DNA of 21,032 nt from a virus. The DNA lies in IMG/VR virus record IMGVR_UViG_3300003690_000120, positions 1 to 21,032 of that record; one strand, 5' to 3'. The notes beneath the pieces are model-generated. The model was not told the origin of the DNA. It worked only from the letters and a program-made list of their open reading frames with translations, and searched no databases. Shown here piece by piece: positions 1,457-9,029 of this stretch (position 1 is the stretch's first letter; every line of letters starts with the position of its first letter). Made by a program: the position numbers and the translations under genes.

Positions 1457-4189
1457 CTAACCCCGAGCAGCCGCGAAGGCTTCCCCTCCTATAATATCTA
1501 TTACTTCGGTAGCAAGTGTTTTTCTATCAAGCTGTAAATTCACAGTTATTTGGTACGGGCGTTCTCCTCCGGCCCGGGCAGTTCCGGGGGCGGCTGCTAC
1601 TGGAGCCGCGGCGGCCTCGATGCCCACAGTTGTGGCTGCTTTCAGAACCTCTTTGGTGGCGCCCACATCTATACCTATCACCTGTAGGCCGGTCTTGGCC
1701 CACTCGGGGATGGCTTCTCGGGCAATCTTTAACGCGTTGATGGCCAATTCTGCTAGTTCTGGGCCAAGATTCCCAAAAGCGTTCACAATTCCCTGTCTCA
1801 TAGGATCTCCAATCTGCTTCTCCATTTCGGACGAAGGAGAGCTGATTCCAAGGAATGACTTAATTCCGGCCACTCCTTCACTAAAGCTGGTTTTCCAAGA
1901 ATTTATACCCTCTGTAATTTTATTGCCCATGCTTTCAAAGCTGAAGGCCTCTCCAATGCCGATCATTATTTCCCTAATCTTACCTGGAATTGAAGTTTTT
2001 AGTGAGTCCCATGTGTTTAAGAAGCTCTCGTGCCATGCGTTAAACTTCTCTTTGATGATATCAAACATGGCGCCCAGTATCTTGAGGGGGGTTAATAACG
2101 CATCGATGGCAGGGCGCGCCAAATTTAACAATTTGGGAATTAAAGCGAAGCCTTCCAGGAAAGAGAGGCTAGACTTTTTGTTCATGGCTTCGGAGGTACC
2201 CGTGATCGCATCCGTGATTCGTACCAATCCACCCCACATACTTTTCAGGGGGTCCACAATACCATCTAGCATCCCCTTCCAAAACGTCAAGAGGGTTTTA
2301 AACGTGAATCCTTCTTTTACTATCGCCGAGATGGCTTCCCATGTAACCCAGAAGATCATTGTAACGGGGCTTAACTTAAAACCCAACTCAGCCATAGCAA
2401 AGCCGAACTGCACAAACCCCGCTATAATGTCGTATACCATCATCAAAGTATCTACAGCCTTGGATACTTTTTCCATGGCGGTCGCGACCTTATTGAGCGC
2501 ATCGACAGCTTCCGTCATCTTTGCAACTGGATCAAACTTTTCGATCCCCGTAAGAATGAATGAATTGATGATGGTTTCAAAGCTAGTTCGAAGCTTGGCC
2601 ACACCATCCTCGCTCTCGACAAATTCATTCATCATATCGTTGATCACTCTGCCAATGAGAGAAAATGCCGGGGCGAGACTGGCCAGTGTGTTTTTGAGGA
2701 TTTCCATGGTAGATTGCCAGCGCTGGGCGTCTTTACGCGCGTCGGCGTATTGCTTGGAGGTTTTACCAATATTGCCGGCCAGACCTTCCATGTCTCCGGA
2801 CATCATTTGAGCTAGCTGGCTTTCGTCTTTAAACCCTAGCATTTCAGTAAACATCTTCTTTTGGTGATATCCCATCTCATCAAAGGAAAGCCCAGTATCA
2901 GTAATCGATTTTCTAATCATCTCGAAACGCTTCGCAGGATTAGTCTCCATCATCATATCCATCGCATTCACAAAGTTTCCACCAAGAGCAGCATTAAGCT
3001 TTCCGGTCATTGCGGCGGCATCTTCAAAAGTATCAAACTTGCCTGTGAGTTGAAGGATACTGTTCAAGTCCATGCCCGTGATCTTGCTGATCATTGAGAG
3101 ATCTTTGAACGCTTTCACTCCCTCTTTACCAAACTGAGCCATGCTACCAGCAGCATTAGCAAATTGGCTGGCCAAAATGCCCACATCGACGCCTATATCC
3201 ATAGCATGCGCGCGCATTTCAAGCATTACGTTGTCGGCATCACTTAGGGAAACCCCGAGGCCTTTCACCGCACCTTGTATACCTTTCGCATAGTCCTGGG
3301 CGCTAACTCCTAATTCCGCAAGAACCGCGCCTGTTTTAGCCATTTGCTTCTGTTGGGCCGACGAGGCTTCTGTAAAAATCGTGGTTTCTCGATATAAGCT
3401 CGTGTACTGTTGCCGCATTTCGTTCATGTCCACGCCGGTGGATTGAAGCTCTTTTTGGGCTATCGCCATCTGTTCACCCATAGCATAAGTGGCACCGGTC
3501 ATTCGCTGCAAGCTAACTGCTGCATCTCGCGTGGCTGTTGCTAATTCAAAGATCCATTTTACGAGCTTAACTATCAGCATTATAACAAATATAATAATCC
3601 CGATTCCGAATGCCGCCATTAATGCCTGAGCCGAGATTGCGCCCGCATCCAAGGCTTTCTTGAGCAATTTGGCACCTTTAACAAACTTCTGCATGCCCCC
3701 TATGCCACTCATAATCATTTGGCCCATTTTTCCTTGACCTATCATCTGTTGGCCCATAGTTTTAAGCATATCGGTGCCAAGTTTGTTCACTTGTTTCTTA
3801 AGCCCGATGCGCACGCGTTCTTTGCGTATAAGTAAGTCCTGTTTTTCCAAAAAGGCGGCTTCGTCGGCAGTTATGCTCTTTCCCAAGTCTAGACGCGTCT
3901 CATACAAGCGCACGCGTTCTCTATCTATCTCGCGTTGTGCATCTGCGATTTCTTTGGCCATTTGGCGTCTAACATATTCACTCTCCGCGGTAGCAAGTGC
4001 GCTTTCTTGTAGGGCCTGTTCTTCTTTGAGGGCGTCAATGCGAGCTTGGATTAGCTCTAAACCGGCTGCAGATGCTCGTGGGCCTATAGTACCTCCAGGG
4101 GCGCCAGCGCCGCCGTCTTCTCTCATTGCGCCGGCAGCTTCTTTAAAGCCTTCTCTAATAGCTCTTTTGATCTCGTCAAATTCGGCCAT
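1457..4189 (-). CDS. Tail tape measure protein
   Basis: This 910-residue protein is expected to fill the tail tube, set tail length during assembly and help DNA pass into the host. An N-terminal coiled coil (about residues 44-135, rich in Glu, Arg and Lys) is followed by a clear membrane-spanning helix (about 191-212). A long helical region then carries Met- and Ala-rich amphipathic stretches (about 220-480), with a second hydrophobic zone near 580-620. Near residue 780 is the sequence FLGISSPSSEMEKQIGDPM, a form of the FLGI.SPS motif common near the C-terminus of tape measure proteins. Size and position downstream of the tube and chaperone genes agree. At about 0.15 nm per residue (rule of thumb) the tail would be near 130-140 nm, longer than T4. 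The ATG follows AGAGGA at 6-7 bases. Confidence 0.92.
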   Translation of the reverse strand: MAEFDEIKRAIREGFKEAAGAMREDGGAGAPGGTIGPRASAAGLELIQARIDALKEEQALQESALATAESEYVRRQMAKEIADAQREIDRERVRLYETRLDLGKSITADEAAFLEKQDLLIRKERVRIGLKKQVNKLGTDMLKTMGQQMIGQGKMGQMIMSGIGGMQKFVKGAKLLKKALDAGAISAQALMAAFGIGIIIFVIMLIVKLVKWIFELATATRDAAVSLQRMTGATYAMGEQMAIAQKELQSTGVDMNEMRQQYTSLYRETTIFTEASSAQQKQMAKTGAVLAELGVSAQDYAKGIQGAVKGLGVSLSDADNVMLEMRAHAMDIGVDVGILASQFANAAGSMAQFGKEGVKAFKDLSMISKITGMDLNSILQLTGKFDTFEDAAAMTGKLNAALGGNFVNAMDMMMETNPAKRFEMIRKSITDTGLSFDEMGYHQKKMFTEMLGFKDESQLAQMMSGDMEGLAGNIGKTSKQYADARKDAQRWQSTMEILKNTLASLAPAFSLIGRVINDMMNEFVESEDGVAKLRTSFETIINSFILTGIEKFDPVAKMTEAVDALNKVATAMEKVSKAVDTLMMVYDIIAGFVQFGFAMAELGFKLSPVTMIFWVTWEAISAIVKEGFTFKTLLTFWKGMLDGIVDPLKSMWGGLVRITDAITGTSEAMNKKSSLSFLEGFALIPKLLNLARPAIDALLTPLKILGAMFDIIKEKFNAWHESFLNTWDSLKTSIPGKIREIMIGIGEAFSFESMGNKITEGINSWKTSFSEGVAGIKSFLGISSPSSEMEKQIGDPMRQGIVNAFGNLGPELAELAINALKIAREAIPEWAKTGLQVIGIDVGATKEVLKAATTVGIEAAAAPVAAAPGTARAGGERPYQITVNLQLDRKTLATEVIDIIGGEAFAAARG

Positions 4190-4231: not shown

Positions 4232-4259
4232 AAAAAAGGCAGAACTATTCAGTTCTGCC
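4232..4259 (-). terminator. Intrinsic terminator overlapping the end of the gp51-like gene
   Basis: On the minus strand GGCAGAACT and AGTTCTGCC form a perfect 9-bp stem with a four-base GAAT loop, followed at once by six T. The TAG stop of the gp51-like frame lies inside the hairpin, with its T in the loop and its A and G in the stem. The terminator therefore sits on the coding sequence, so ribosomes finishing the gene should affect its folding. Confidence 0.85.
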
Positions 4260-4493
4260 AAATTGGCTGTTCATCTGCGGGGGAGAATTGGGTTGATTGT
4301 GGGAAGAAAGGACCTGTGTGTTGGAGCTACTGCCACCCGATCCCTTCTCCATGGCATCCTTTTCATCTTGTAGCTGCTGTACAAGCCTATCTACAAACCA
4401 CATCCGCAACCCGACGGGGAGATTGTATGCTTCTGAGAAGGACCAGCCTCCTGCATATTTCAAAAAGAAGAAGTGTTCATACACTCCTTCCAT
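4245..4493 (-). CDS. Tail assembly chaperone downstream part (T4 gp51-like), probably made by frameshift
   Basis: From its first ATG this frame encodes 82 residues. The core (EHFFFLKYAGGWSFSEAY and then NLPVGLRMWFVDRLVQQL) matches the small helical protein that follows the gp26-like gene in T4-related phages, where gp51 acts in baseplate hub or tail assembly. The Gln/Ser/Asn-rich tail is probably disordered. The ATG at 4493 has no good Shine-Dalgarno sequence. The same frame is open upstream through the end of the gp26-like gene and reads GLTDEY directly before the ATG, joining smoothly to FF of the upstream protein. The likely main product is therefore a fusion of about 370 residues made by +1 (or -2) frameshifting, as in other phage tail assembly chaperones. 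Independent initiation at 4493 is the alternative. Confidence 0.65.
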   Translation of the reverse strand: MEGVYEHFFFLKYAGGWSFSEAYNLPVGLRMWFVDRLVQQLQDEKDAMEKGSGGSSSNTQVLSSHNQPNSPPQMNSQFGRTE

Positions 4494-4497
4494 GTAC

Positions 4498-5358
4498 TCA
4501 TCGGTCAGGCCAAAAAAATTCCGCCCCTAGCGGAACCTCCATATCAGCACTGTAATCACATTCTTCGCACTCAAAGTGCTGTGTGAGGTCGACGTTGGGA
4601 GCGGCGGCCTTATATGCTAGCCGGAGGTGCCGAGAATCTTTAGAGGGGATGTTGGCTATCACATAACTTAAAGCTTCGTCTTCCGTATTGTCGTTAACGG
4701 CCACTATTATACTTTTAAGTTGCTGTGTTATCAGGGATTCTGTCTTCTTGGTTTTCTTCTCGCGTTCGATGGCCTTAGTCACCCGCGTTTCATCATAACC
4801 ATCGAGAAGTCTAAATGTAACATCTAGTTTGGTCTGGGGTAATTGAACGTTGAACGTCCCATCGTCGTTATATTTAACGGACATTGTGCCCAGTTCATCT
4901 CCCTGATAAATTAAAGCTTCATTTAAGTCAAATTGATAATCTTGTGTTTCTCCGCAAGCAGGACACGTTGTTTTTGTGGTGTATTCGGGCCCATAGCCAG
5001 CAACTCGGGTGGCAATAATAATGGCATTTCTATCACCCACTAATAGGGAGTCGGGATCGATGCTCTTATCAACAATCAAATTGCGAATAACGCGATCTAA
5101 AGCAACGCCCTTTTTAAGAAGAGTTCGTGACGTGAGAATATCCTCTTCTCGCGCGGTCATTTGTTTGATTTCGATACTTCCTTCATTGTGCAAGGGGTGA
5201 CCTTGGGGGTAATATCTCCCGCCAGAAGGCAACTCTACAAATTCAGTAGGAACTACAAAGGAAAAAATCGCGCCCCCGGGGTCGTTGTTCACCATTTGTG
5301 AGACAGGGGGGGTTGTGTTGGCCTGTTTAGCGCCTACACGATCTTTATTTCGTGACAA
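4498..5358 (-). CDS. T4 gp26-like baseplate hub/tail assembly chaperone with zinc ribbon
   Basis: This 286-residue protein belongs to the T4 gp26 (Pfam T4_baseplate type) group. Recognisable parts are VVPTEFVELPSGGRYYP (about residues 35-51), the MTAREEDIL block (67-75) and two CxxC pairs (C132/C135 in CPAC, C264/C267 in CEEC) that probably bind one zinc ion. It is thought to help assemble the baseplate hub or to act as a tail assembly chaperone; its position between tube and tape measure is the classic chaperone slot. The start is TTG at 5358, with AAGAGGT about 5 bases upstream. The first in-frame ATG (residue 22) lacks a ribosome binding site. The gene ends FFWPDR, and the seven-T run encoding the FF is the likely frameshift point. 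Confidence 0.8.
   Translation of the reverse strand: MSRNKDRVGAKQANTTPPVSQMVNNDPGGAIFSFVVPTEFVELPSGGRYYPQGHPLHNEGSIEIKQMTAREEDILTSRTLLKKGVALDRVIRNLIVDKSIDPDSLLVGDRNAIIIATRVAGYGPEYTTKTTCPACGETQDYQFDLNEALIYQGDELGTMSVKYNDDGTFNVQLPQTKLDVTFRLLDGYDETRVTKAIEREKKTKKTESLITQQLKSIIVAVNDNTEDEALSYVIANIPSKDSRHLRLAYKAAAPNVDLTQHFECEECDYSADMEVPLGAEFFWPDR
4510..4521 (-). promoter_or_regulatory. Probable programmed ribosomal frameshift site (run of seven T)
   Basis: The zero frame of the gp26-like gene reads GAA TTT TTT TGG and stops at TGA 4500-4498. Skipping one T (+1) or slipping back two bases gives TTT TTT GGC CTG ACC GAT GAG TAC ATG, which continues into the gp51-like frame without a stop. A -1 slip would end after two codons at TGA. 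Phe codons in a seven-T run allow slippage with re-pairing. The tail chaperone position is where phages commonly use recoding. A one-base sequencing error in the homopolymer would give the same picture. Confidence 0.6.
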
Positions 5359-5383
5359 TATACACCTCTTATTTTAATATTGG

Positions 5384-5983
5384 TTAGCTAGATCTAACAC
5401 CGAAGAATTCATTTCCACCCGTGGGACCAGCGGACTTGCTTTGGGGCGTTTCAATACGCGCCCAATCATACCGAAGCTTTACCGTCAATTCGGTAAGTTC
5501 GTTCGAACCATATTCAAGTGAACCGTAATTCACTTCTGTAATGAAGCCATTCCAGAGTGTCCATTGCTCCAGGGGATTACCATCGGCATCAATTTGAGTA
5601 ATGATAACGGTCCCGAGAGCGCCGGCGGACTTAGCCTTTGACATCGTAGTCATGCTTTCGTTGGTTGCATCAGTGGGAGGCTTATAGCCAGAAGCCGTAA
5701 CAATGTCGGAAAGGGTGGCTGCGGTGTCGGGATCTACTGGATCGACGAGTGTAACACTTATCTCGCCCCACGTAACTGATCCAGGATACCAAAAGGTATG
5801 GTTCAAGTATTTGTGATCTTGAGCTTCAATTGTAAAACTGGGCTTGTCGGTGGTTTTTGCATACCACAGAACTGCCCCACCCTGTGCAGCGGTTACCCCG
5901 GTAAAAGATATCGTAAACCTAAATTTCCGCTTGGGATCCTTTAGGGTGGTGTCTTCTCCGAAATTTGTTGACCAAAATGCCAT
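5384..5983 (-). CDS. Tail tube protein (T4 gp19-like)
   Basis: This 199-residue protein should form the stacked hexameric rings of the inner tail tube. It fits the T4 gp19 family in size (T4 about 163) and in sequence pattern. It opens with NFGEDTTLKDPKRKFRFTISF, then WYAKTTDKPSFTIE, the HTFWYPGSVTWGEISVTLVDP strand pair, and a late block around QWTLWNGFITEVNYGSLEYGSNEL ending in TVKLRYDWA. Alternating strands around a short helix match the tube fold. It lies directly after the sheath gene, as in T4. AAGGGAG stands about 10 bases before the ATG, and a copy of the intergenic ACTAATTA motif lies 27 bases before it, so it may be transcribed separately from the sheath. Confidence 0.93.
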   Translation of the reverse strand: MAFWSTNFGEDTTLKDPKRKFRFTISFTGVTAAQGGAVLWYAKTTDKPSFTIEAQDHKYLNHTFWYPGSVTWGEISVTLVDPVDPDTAATLSDIVTASGYKPPTDATNESMTTMSKAKSAGALGTVIITQIDADGNPLEQWTLWNGFITEVNYGSLEYGSNELTELTVKLRYDWARIETPQSKSAGPTGGNEFFGVRSS

Positions 5984-6032: not shown

Positions 6033-9029
6033 TTAGTCGTCAAATGATGCGCCAGTGCGAGCAACCACGAAGTCAATTGCAATAAATTCAATCGCTCTGG
6101 CCGGCTTAATCATAATTTTAGCATACAAAATGTTCTGATCAATCAAGTCTGGGGTGGTCGTAGTCTCGTCAAGAATTAGTCGATAGTCAGTAATACCATA
6201 CTTCACCATGACGTTCGCCAAGAACGGCTCAACCAGAGACTTAAATCGATCCCAAGTTGCTTGAACGTTCTGCTCAAATAGAATCTGAGAGGCGATAATG
6301 GAGATTTGCTTCTTGAGGAAAACTACCAATCTTCTCACATTAATTCTATCGAGCGCAGAAGCTCTTTCTTGAAGCGTCTTCTGACCGAATACCACAATCC
6401 CGGTGGAGGGGAAGGAGGCAATTGGGTTAATGCGTGCTTCATACAGTAAATCTCTTTCTTTAGAGGTTAATCTTTCAGTTACGTTCGTAATCGGAATACC
6501 TGCCGCACCATTGGTTAGGCCACCGCGGTTAAATCCGGCGGGAGCAAACCACAGAGCGGTCTTCGCCTCTGAACTTGCAAGAACGCCCATCATTGCTACG
6601 CTTGGGGGAATCCACAGCATGCGGCCAGTTCCCTCATCCCGAGTCTGAACCCAGGGATAGAAGGTACAACCATAGCTCGAATCTATTCTACGATTACGTA
6701 AATCGTTTGCCGCTTGAACCGGCGTCGTGCCAATTCTGTCGGCCTTATTAGATTGATATGATTCCTGCACTGGGATGTACACGTTAGGCAAATCAATCAA
6801 GGATAGTGCGTCTGCGCGAGCCTCACACAAGGCGACCATTTGATCAGCCAGAGATGTCTGAGTAATGCCCGGAACTGCCAACAAGTTCATATCTACCACT
6901 TCGGGATCTGCGATTGTATCAAGTGCTCGCTTAATGGTGTGATATGCATAGCTGGTATTTTCTGTTGATCCATCGGGCATGCCCGCGTTATACACAGGAT
7001 CGGGTTTGGTAATGTCCCAGCCGTCGAACGCGCTGTGTAGAGGTAGTGTAAACTGGTTATAATCTGCATCAAGCAAATCCTTCCAAGATGTGCTGCCATA
7101 GCTAGTGCCGGCGAGGCGCGAACCTGAAAGATAGTAGAAGCCCGCGGCCTGGGAAGAGCCTGAAACAACATCGTCCAAAGTGAAGATATATGAATATGCA
7201 TCGACTCCGGTACCGCTTGGCTGATCGCTGGCGATTCCACCATATAGAAGTCGATGGAAATCGGCAATACTGGCATCGGAAATCGTGCTTCCGCTAGCGC
7301 GTGTAGTGGCCATTCCAAAGTAAGCTTCCGTAGGATCGGACGTGCCACCAGCGGATGCAGACCTTCTAAGTCGTACTACTGGGAACTTCATCTTAATGCG
7401 CGCGTACTCGCCGGAACCGGTTAGAAGGGCTACCGCGGCACCCGCCGCAACGGAGCAAGTTAGAATGGTCTGGGGGGTTCCCCACGCTGTATACATGCCG
7501 GTGGTTGGCGAGCCGATGAACAGCGAGGCGGCCTCCGAGGTTAAGTCCATGACCCCGCCGACCTCGGCGACCGAGCGCTCGGTCTGGATTTCGTTTCCAT
7601 CTTTAAACTTCGGAGGACCAAAGTAGCCGAAGGGGAGCAGTTCTGGATCTGCAGCACCAGCATCAACGTCTGCATTTGTTTGCACATATACATATCTCGA
7701 CAGATTGTCGTATTCTCCATAAGTGCGGAGCCTCTTTTGTGTGGTGTCCCATGCTGTATAGCGGTCGCCAATCTTCTTGCCAACGAAATTGGGGGAAGCC
7801 GGATCAAGAGTGCAATTATCAAACCTTTCTAGTACTTGGATAGCATTGTCTGTGTCGTGTAGGCTGCGTATAACTACTGAAAACGTGCCATAAGATGTGA
7901 TAGAGCTATTAGACTGTCTAATCTTCTCGATTGAAACCTTTGCGTTCCTTTGCAGCCACTCTCCGTGGCCGCGGCCAACAAGACGGAAAAGCTTTTGCAT
8001 GTTCTCCGCCGTGAAACTTGTATAAACCCCTGTGTCCTGTCCGATAATCCATCCGGAGTTGGCCTCAACAGAAGGCTGAGACGCCATGTTCTGTGGACCT
8101 GTGCCAACCGTGCCGCTGAGGGATAGTGGCCACACCCAAGCTACAGTATTAACGGTGCTTCCAATAAGCCCATCGTCTCGTAATTGCTGCTCGTAGCTCT
8201 CGCCTAGCCAATAATCTTTTTCTACTGCGTCGGGATAGAAGCTTCCTGAACTGATTAGCTGCGGGTTAGTGTTGATCTTTCTGCGAATAAAGTGCTCCGA
8301 CGAATCGTCGAAGTTAAACTTAACAGTGTCATCATTGGTATTGGTTAGGATTCTCATTGTGTATAGACCACCACTCTTGTTAAGGAGCGCGCCGATACTG
8401 GCGGTCGTGGCGATGGAATCATCGATGTGGCCGCCGTCCAAACGGGTGCCACCAAAAATGCTTCCCGAAAGAAGGGGGGCACCAGATTCCGTGTAAATGA
8501 CTGCCGCAAGGCTCGCAGTAAGGGAGGTGACGTTGGTCGAGGATGGCGTGCCGGCTTGGCTGGCAGATGCTGCCACCCAAATGCCCCAAGCGCCGCCGGT
8601 CCGGGCTGGGAATGTCGTACCTATGCGCGAGGCTGGCTGCGTTCCACAGTTAAGCTCGGTCTTCCAGCCTGCCGCGGCGCCGCCGCCCTTGGCTGCGCCG
8701 GCGGTGGTGTTTTGGCCGAGAAGGCGTACATAGGTGAGGGGCGCGACGTTTGCTCTTAAGAATGCTCTGGCTGCGTAGAGGCCGTACATGGGTGACTTAA
8801 GGTTACCATCGCGGGATACATCGCTGCCGGCGCCTCCTGGCACCGTTTCGCCAAACATTTCTACAAATTGTGAATATGATTCGACTTTAATGGGATGCAT
8901 AGCAATGCCGCGCGTGGCTCTACCAACCACCACGGGGCCGATATCTTCGGCCTTCTTTGGCATAAAGGAGTTGTCAATTTCATTAATGAAAACTCCAGGA
9001 GATACAAACTTAAAATTCTTTACTGACAT
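6033..9029 (-). CDS. Contractile tail sheath protein (T4 gp18-like)
   Basis: This 998-residue protein should form the outer sheath that contracts to drive the tube through the host envelope. The N-terminus (VSPGVFINEIDNS, then VVVGRATRGIAM and YSQFVEMFGE) and the C-terminal domain (NRGGLTNGAAGI, NPIASFPSTGIVVFGQKTLQ, INVRRLVVFLKKQI, FEQN..TW..F, ending with PARAIEFIAIDFVV) are standard sheath signatures. The conserved penultimate domain (about residues 650-740, with LLAVPGITQ) is also present. T4 gp18 is 659 residues, so the middle region, roughly 110-620, carries large extra surface domains. GGGAG lies about 11 bases before the ATG and an ACTATTTA motif 51 bases before it. Confidence 0.97.
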   Translation of the reverse strand: MSVKNFKFVSPGVFINEIDNSFMPKKAEDIGPVVVGRATRGIAMHPIKVESYSQFVEMFGETVPGGAGSDVSRDGNLKSPMYGLYAARAFLRANVAPLTYVRLLGQNTTAGAAKGGGAAAGWKTELNCGTQPASRIGTTFPARTGGAWGIWVAASASQAGTPSSTNVTSLTASLAAVIYTESGAPLLSGSIFGGTRLDGGHIDDSIATTASIGALLNKSGGLYTMRILTNTNDDTVKFNFDDSSEHFIRRKINTNPQLISSGSFYPDAVEKDYWLGESYEQQLRDDGLIGSTVNTVAWVWPLSLSGTVGTGPQNMASQPSVEANSGWIIGQDTGVYTSFTAENMQKLFRLVGRGHGEWLQRNAKVSIEKIRQSNSSITSYGTFSVVIRSLHDTDNAIQVLERFDNCTLDPASPNFVGKKIGDRYTAWDTTQKRLRTYGEYDNLSRYVYVQTNADVDAGAADPELLPFGYFGPPKFKDGNEIQTERSVAEVGGVMDLTSEAASLFIGSPTTGMYTAWGTPQTILTCSVAAGAAVALLTGSGEYARIKMKFPVVRLRRSASAGGTSDPTEAYFGMATTRASGSTISDASIADFHRLLYGGIASDQPSGTGVDAYSYIFTLDDVVSGSSQAAGFYYLSGSRLAGTSYGSTSWKDLLDADYNQFTLPLHSAFDGWDITKPDPVYNAGMPDGSTENTSYAYHTIKRALDTIADPEVVDMNLLAVPGITQTSLADQMVALCEARADALSLIDLPNVYIPVQESYQSNKADRIGTTPVQAANDLRNRRIDSSYGCTFYPWVQTRDEGTGRMLWIPPSVAMMGVLASSEAKTALWFAPAGFNRGGLTNGAAGIPITNVTERLTSKERDLLYEARINPIASFPSTGIVVFGQKTLQERASALDRINVRRLVVFLKKQISIIASQILFEQNVQATWDRFKSLVEPFLANVMVKYGITDYRLILDETTTTPDLIDQNILYAKIMIKPARAIEFIAIDFVVARTGASFDD

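Follow-up and report, generated by a model that had tools for sequence, protein, structure and literature searches.

A probable G/GT-type tail assembly chaperone gene, decoded by a +1 slip, in T4-superfamily myoviruses

Organization of the locus

The stretch of DNA analysed here, called the window, covers positions 1 to 21,032 of the viral record IMGVR_UViG_3300003690_000120 of IMG/VR. The locus lies on its minus strand, among genes for the phage tail, and comprises the following features.

6033..9029, minus strand: tail sheath protein, 998 aa (phrog_23, E=1.3e-64)
5384..5983, minus strand: tail tube protein, gp19-like (phrog_4542, E=1.8e-25)
5363..5369, minus strand: Shine-Dalgarno sequence AGAGGTG of ORF1
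4498..5358, minus strand: ORF1, a gp26-like putative short chaperone of 286 aa, with a TTG start at 5358 and CxxC pairs of the zinc-ribbon type
4515..4540, minus strand: predicted stem-loop TGGAGGT(N)CCGC-loop-GCGGA(N)TTTT, with the slippery run forming part of its 3′ arm
4512..4518, minus strand: slippery run TTTTTTT (T7), read GAA TTT TTT TGG in frame 0
4498..4508, minus strand: end of the dual-coding stretch past the slip (frame 0, end of W-P-D-R-stop; frame +1, L-T-D...)
4248..4511, minus strand: +1-frame tail of 88 codons (GLTDEYMEGVYEHFFFLKYAGGWSF...), with its stop at 4245-4247
4238..4259, minus strand: terminator-like hairpin, GGCAGAACTGAATAGTTCTGCC, which runs into T6 and overlaps the +1-tail stop; it comes from a pattern scan that gave no more such hairpins than chance would
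1457..4189, minus strand: tape-measure-like ORF of 910 aa, so called for its position, length and hydrophobic stretches

Upstream of ORF1 are the tail tube, the tail sheath and a gp23-type capsid protein, and downstream is the 910-aa ORF. The order sheath, tube, ORF1, +1 tail and long ORF resembling a tape measure protein (TMP) is kept in relatives. For instance, the records of Flavobacterium phage immuto and of SP-15 are annotated in the order tube, ORF1, TMP, and in relatives the long ORF comes next. The 910-aa ORF itself has no convincing family match and shows no similarity to annotated TMPs by BLASTP, and its designation as tape-measure-like is purely positional. This long ORF, 3′ of the terminator-like hairpin, has its own AGAGGA. 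Elsewhere in the window, two tail-fibre-like ORFs (18959-18537 and 18534-17725, minus strand) abut in different frames, as though a single ORF were interrupted or recoded around 18.55 kb. The window gave no hits in Rfam and tRNA scans.

ORF1 matches the Pfam family PF12322 (T4_baseplate) with E=5e-17 and 62.7 bits, against a curated cutoff of 24.5, and the baseplate hub family phrog_150 with E=7.5e-20. Structures were predicted for the short form and for a T4-like gp51. The AF2 model of the short form has a pLDDT of 87.6, and among viral structures it matches T4-like hub assembly proteins, SP-15 and gp26. In the PDB, the best match is the HK97 tail assembly chaperone 2OB9, with a probability of 0.85 but a weak E of 0.3.

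In the zero frame, ORF1 ends GGG GCG GAA TTT TTT TGG CCT GAC CGA TGA, with the stop at 4500..4498. In the +1 frame, a TAG shortly before the junction is followed by open sequence that reads FFGLTDEYMEGVYEH... and stops at 4247..4245. A first-pass annotation of the window had proposed that +1 or -2 recoding at the T-run fuses a gp26-like frame to a gp51-like one, and the T-run and the frames are as it described. A -1 slip does end after two codons (L-A-stop), and no Shine-Dalgarno sequence was found ahead of the ATG at 4493, the first of the +1 frame, in contrast to the AGAGGTG ahead of ORF1. The predicted products likewise have the lengths it had given, 286 aa for the short form and 370 aa for the fusion of ORF1 with the tail. 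The stem-loop upstream of the junction is an addition to that description. The +1 tail (4245-4523) also shows a weak match, with E 0.05, to the Pfam family DUF6760, whose function is unknown; this is a possible lead to a wider family.

Conservation of the junction

Hundreds of relatives were found by searches of IMG/VR and of phage records, and 200 distinct junctions from IMG/VR and isolates were inspected. Of these, 193 were usable and 192 entered the re-pairing test described below. The downstream tail is in the +1 frame at every junction inspected (n=200) except in three far relatives, LR756511, Atu_ph07 and PA5oct, which have the tail in another frame and were set aside. A YTT-T/C slip codon is present at all 193 usable junctions. 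The most frequent variant is TTT TTT TGG (150), followed by TTT CTT TGG (28), TTT CTA (5) and CTT TTT TGG (3), with others rarer; at the non-homopolymer sites TTT CTT TGG and TTT CTA, the tail is still in +1.

The length of the run has independent support, as the same T7 is found in two near-identical contigs (L081 and L002) and in a more diverged one (L082, 83% protein identity). Of 264 loci, 213 have seven T as their longest run near the stop, and none has eight. Relatives were also searched for the two arrangements named beforehand as counting against recoding, a simple fused gene with six T and separate, well-initiated genes. No in-frame fused relative and no T6 fused gene occurs among the relatives found, nor do they provide the second arrangement. 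Recoding that joins the gp26-like frame to a gp51-like tail, whether +1 or -2, is supported by deep conservation. It had been expected to be unusual in a T4-related myovirus; it appears less so, and in a large clade of T4-superfamily phages it is the rule.

Among isolates, the T7 site occurs in Microcystis phage Mel-JY01 and Rhodothermus phage RM378, for example, and the junction of Flavobacterium phage immuto reads TTTCTTTGG. No frameshift is annotated in the isolate records that carry the site. With the RM378 protein as query, only RM378 was recovered, and no relative was confirmed in bacterial or archaeal genomes.

The far relatives differ in layout. At the corresponding position, PA5oct and Atu_ph07 carry U UUU UUC and their tail lies in the -1 frame; they may represent a switch of direction from +1 to a classical -1 shift. 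In LR756511, after 5769, the gp26-like gene has a C-terminal extension past FFF, and there is a separate tail ORF with an ATG start just 3′ of the stop.

Selection at the junction and on the tail

Synonymous conservation along the gene reaches its maximum at the junction in three clades, those of the window, of Mel and of Flavobacterium. The conservation of CCT GAC after the run can be attributed to dual coding; that of the T-run is not accounted for in this way. Away from the junction, only 3 of 31 Phe-Phe pairs in these genes are written TTTTTT, as against TTT TTT at no fewer than 150 of the 193 junctions. The +1 tail is under purifying selection, with a pN/pS of 0.30 overall and 0.16 in its core (48 sequences).

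In the window's clade (46 non-redundant sequences), the stem positions of the stem-loop are nearly invariant, whereas variation is free at the third codon positions of bulge and loop. Examples fold with -16 to -19 kcal/mol (z -2.2 to -2.8). As the stem pairs hardly vary, a test for covariation is impossible. This constraint is specific to the window's clade, and other clades are without it. The stem-loop could promote a +1 shift by pulling on the mRNA as it re-forms, or it could act on RNA polymerase.

How the two frames may be joined

The locus is probably a G/GT-type tail assembly chaperone gene of a T4-superfamily myovirus, decoded by a +1 ribosomal slip into two products. Most ribosomes would end at the TGA and yield the 286-aa gp26-like protein. 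A minority would slip by +1 with peptidyl-tRNA(Phe) on UUU, re-pairing to the overlapping UUU, and would resume reading at GGC to make the 370-aa fusion, which would carry a helical C-terminal tail and whose junction peptide would read ...AEFFGLTDEYMEGVYEH... in the +1 view. Lambda, taken as the analogue, suggests a role for each product: coating of the tape measure protein for the short form, and recruitment of tail tube subunits for the rarer long one. The RNA stem-loop of the window's clade, with the T-run in its 3′ arm, probably tunes the shift.

The choice of +1 follows from what each junction permits. By simple re-pairing rules of our own, which scan the whole overlap, a +1 shift is possible at 192 of 192 junctions and a -2 shift at 186, and a homopolymer of at least six is present at only 156. 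Thus, among single events, only a ribosomal +1 shift at YUU_U/C accounts for every junction tested. The argument for +1 over the other events leans on relatives that lack the stem-loop; at the T7 itself, -2 and homopolymer slippage are formally possible. The slip site has neither a stop codon nor a closely spaced Shine-Dalgarno sequence. In RF2-type assays in E. coli, UUU_U shifts far less than CUU_U (PMC5009743), and weak shifting of this kind would suit a minor long product.

Alternatively, RNA polymerase could drop one U, aided by a hairpin, in which case some mRNAs would encode the fusion in a single frame. A GC hairpin does stand 2 nt before the U7, as in intrinsic terminators, its stem positions are almost invariant in the window's clade, and a hairpin in a Roseiflexus IS element makes polymerase drop one base (PMC5009743). 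Nevertheless, the Mel and Flavobacterium clades have no upstream constraint, and 36 of the 192 junctions have no homopolymer of six or more and unchanged frames. Variants such as TTT CTT TGG and TTT CTA TGG speak against homopolymer slippage. Where the same review gives examples of slippage without a context feature, the runs have some nine A or T (PMC5009743). Transcriptional slippage therefore seems unlikely.

A -2 ribosomal shift at the T7, of the kind known for phage Mu (PMC5009743), would produce a fusion with one extra Phe (FFFGL), and most junctions permit the re-pairing. However, the six sites that allow +1 only, including TTT CTA TGG, keep the same tail frame, and at one junction (L096) the sole -2 options fall outside the FF site. 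Such a shift is thus very unlikely, and of the two events first put forward, +1 and -2, the variant sites favour the former.

It is also conceivable that the tail is a separate gene, translated alone by coupled re-initiation near the TGA. At 126 of 193 junctions the +1 frame does contain an ATG, 27 of the 193 show a Shine-Dalgarno-like match ahead of one start codon or another, and in Atu_ph07 and LR756511 a start codon coincides with the stop or lies just past it. Yet only GTG or TTG is available at 50 of the 193 junctions, and at 17 there is no ATG, GTG or TTG in the +1 frame near the junction, which leaves independent initiation of the tail poorly supported. As this explanation also leaves the T-run unexplained and the window's ATG has no ribosome binding site, it is hardly credible. 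Finally, an error of sequencing or assembly in what is in truth one fused gene, conceivable in that homopolymers are error-prone, is ruled out by the recurrence of these frames at more than 190 distinct junctions, which come from isolates (Mel-JY01 and RM378, for example) as well as from many metagenomes, by the conserved zero-frame endings and by the non-homopolymer variants.

Relation to T4 gp26 and gp51

T4 gp26 (208 aa) and gp51 (249 aa) both match PF12322 over most of their length, with E=9e-64 and E=4e-52, respectively, and are thus paralogues. T4 gp51 consists of a gp26-type domain plus an extra C-terminal tail, in which the model of a T4-like gp51 has three helices; a PDB search with this model gave no relative and no match to the HK97 chaperone. 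In HMM-HMM comparison, a profile of all +1 tails scores 23.2 against gp51 tails, with a maximum of 14.7 among shuffles (0 of 120 as high). The profile of the core-clade +1 tails scores only 16.1, which 2 of 120 shuffles equal or exceed. The description gp51-like holds for the whole fusion, and the downstream frame by itself corresponds only to the C-terminal tail of gp51.

Both T4 proteins have been listed as hub assembly chaperones (PMC3004832), and the record of Acinetobacter phage Stupor already names both as tape measure protein assembly chaperones. We infer that gp26 corresponds to the short form and gp51 to the long form, split by duplication, and in T4 the frameshift may thus have been replaced by gene duplication. 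The chances seem evenly balanced for the fuller scenario, in which T4 would have resolved an ancestral G/GT frameshift by duplication into gp26 and gp51, its relatives would keep the +1 shift, and the window's clade would have tuned it with a stem-loop.

Comparison with known systems

In a G/GT pair, the long form is the minority product, both products are absent from virions, and they bind the TMP and the tube. The lambda gpG/gpGT pair (Xu, Hendrix and Duda 2004, as cited in PMC5009743) resembles the present locus in its overlapping frames between the tube and TMP genes, and in having a short form plus a rarer, frameshifted form with a C-terminal tail. Here, overlapping ORFs lie between the tube gene and the positional TMP, and a conserved slip site ends the first of them. 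By contrast, lambda shifts by -1 at a heptamer and the shift here would be +1 at YUU_U/C; in addition, the first domain here is PF12322 with zinc-ribbon motifs, in a T4-superfamily myovirus.

There are precedents for +1 shifts in tail chaperones. The Bacillus megaterium myophage Moonbeam has a +1 frameshifted tail chaperone (PMC4299906), and in HSTV-2 a +1 frameshift in the tail chaperone is likely (PMC5009743). The likeness, a +1 shift in the tail chaperone gene of a myovirus, is drawn from their descriptions. The RF2 (prfB) site, CUU UGA C, also has a P-site YUU that slips to UUU, as UUU UGG C would in the window. However, the RF2 site has a UGA stop in the A site and a Shine-Dalgarno sequence 3 nt upstream, whereas the window has a sense UGG and a GGAGG 19 nt upstream of the second TTT.

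Slippage of the Roseiflexus type would call for a hairpin throughout the family, and the hairpin occurs in the window's clade only; a Mu-type -2 shift would call for re-pairing at all sites, and 186 of 192 permit it. T4 gp26 and gp51 share PF12322 and a gp51 tail resembling the +1 tail with the present locus; the difference is that T4 encodes them in distinct paralogous genes, 26 and 51, and uses no frameshift.

Wide conservation of frameshifted tail chaperones has been reported for long-tailed phages "except T4" (PMC5009743). Searches of open-access literature, which did not extend to subscription papers, gave no account of the YUU_U/C site and none that treats gp26/gp51 as a duplicated G/GT pair. 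As far as that literature shows, novelty lies in the version in gp26/gp51 of the T4 superfamily, in its YUU_U/C site, in the stem-loop peculiar to one clade and in the link to the two T4 genes.

The locus would bring G/GT logic into the T4 superfamily, both in a large clade of uncultured phages and in isolates whose records leave it unannotated, and it suggests how T4 lost its frameshifted chaperone. As natural +1 sites on a sense codon, YUU_UGG junctions preceded by a conserved stem-loop would, in turn, be a clean model of +1 shifting, and gp26 and gp51 become testable as a G/GT pair.
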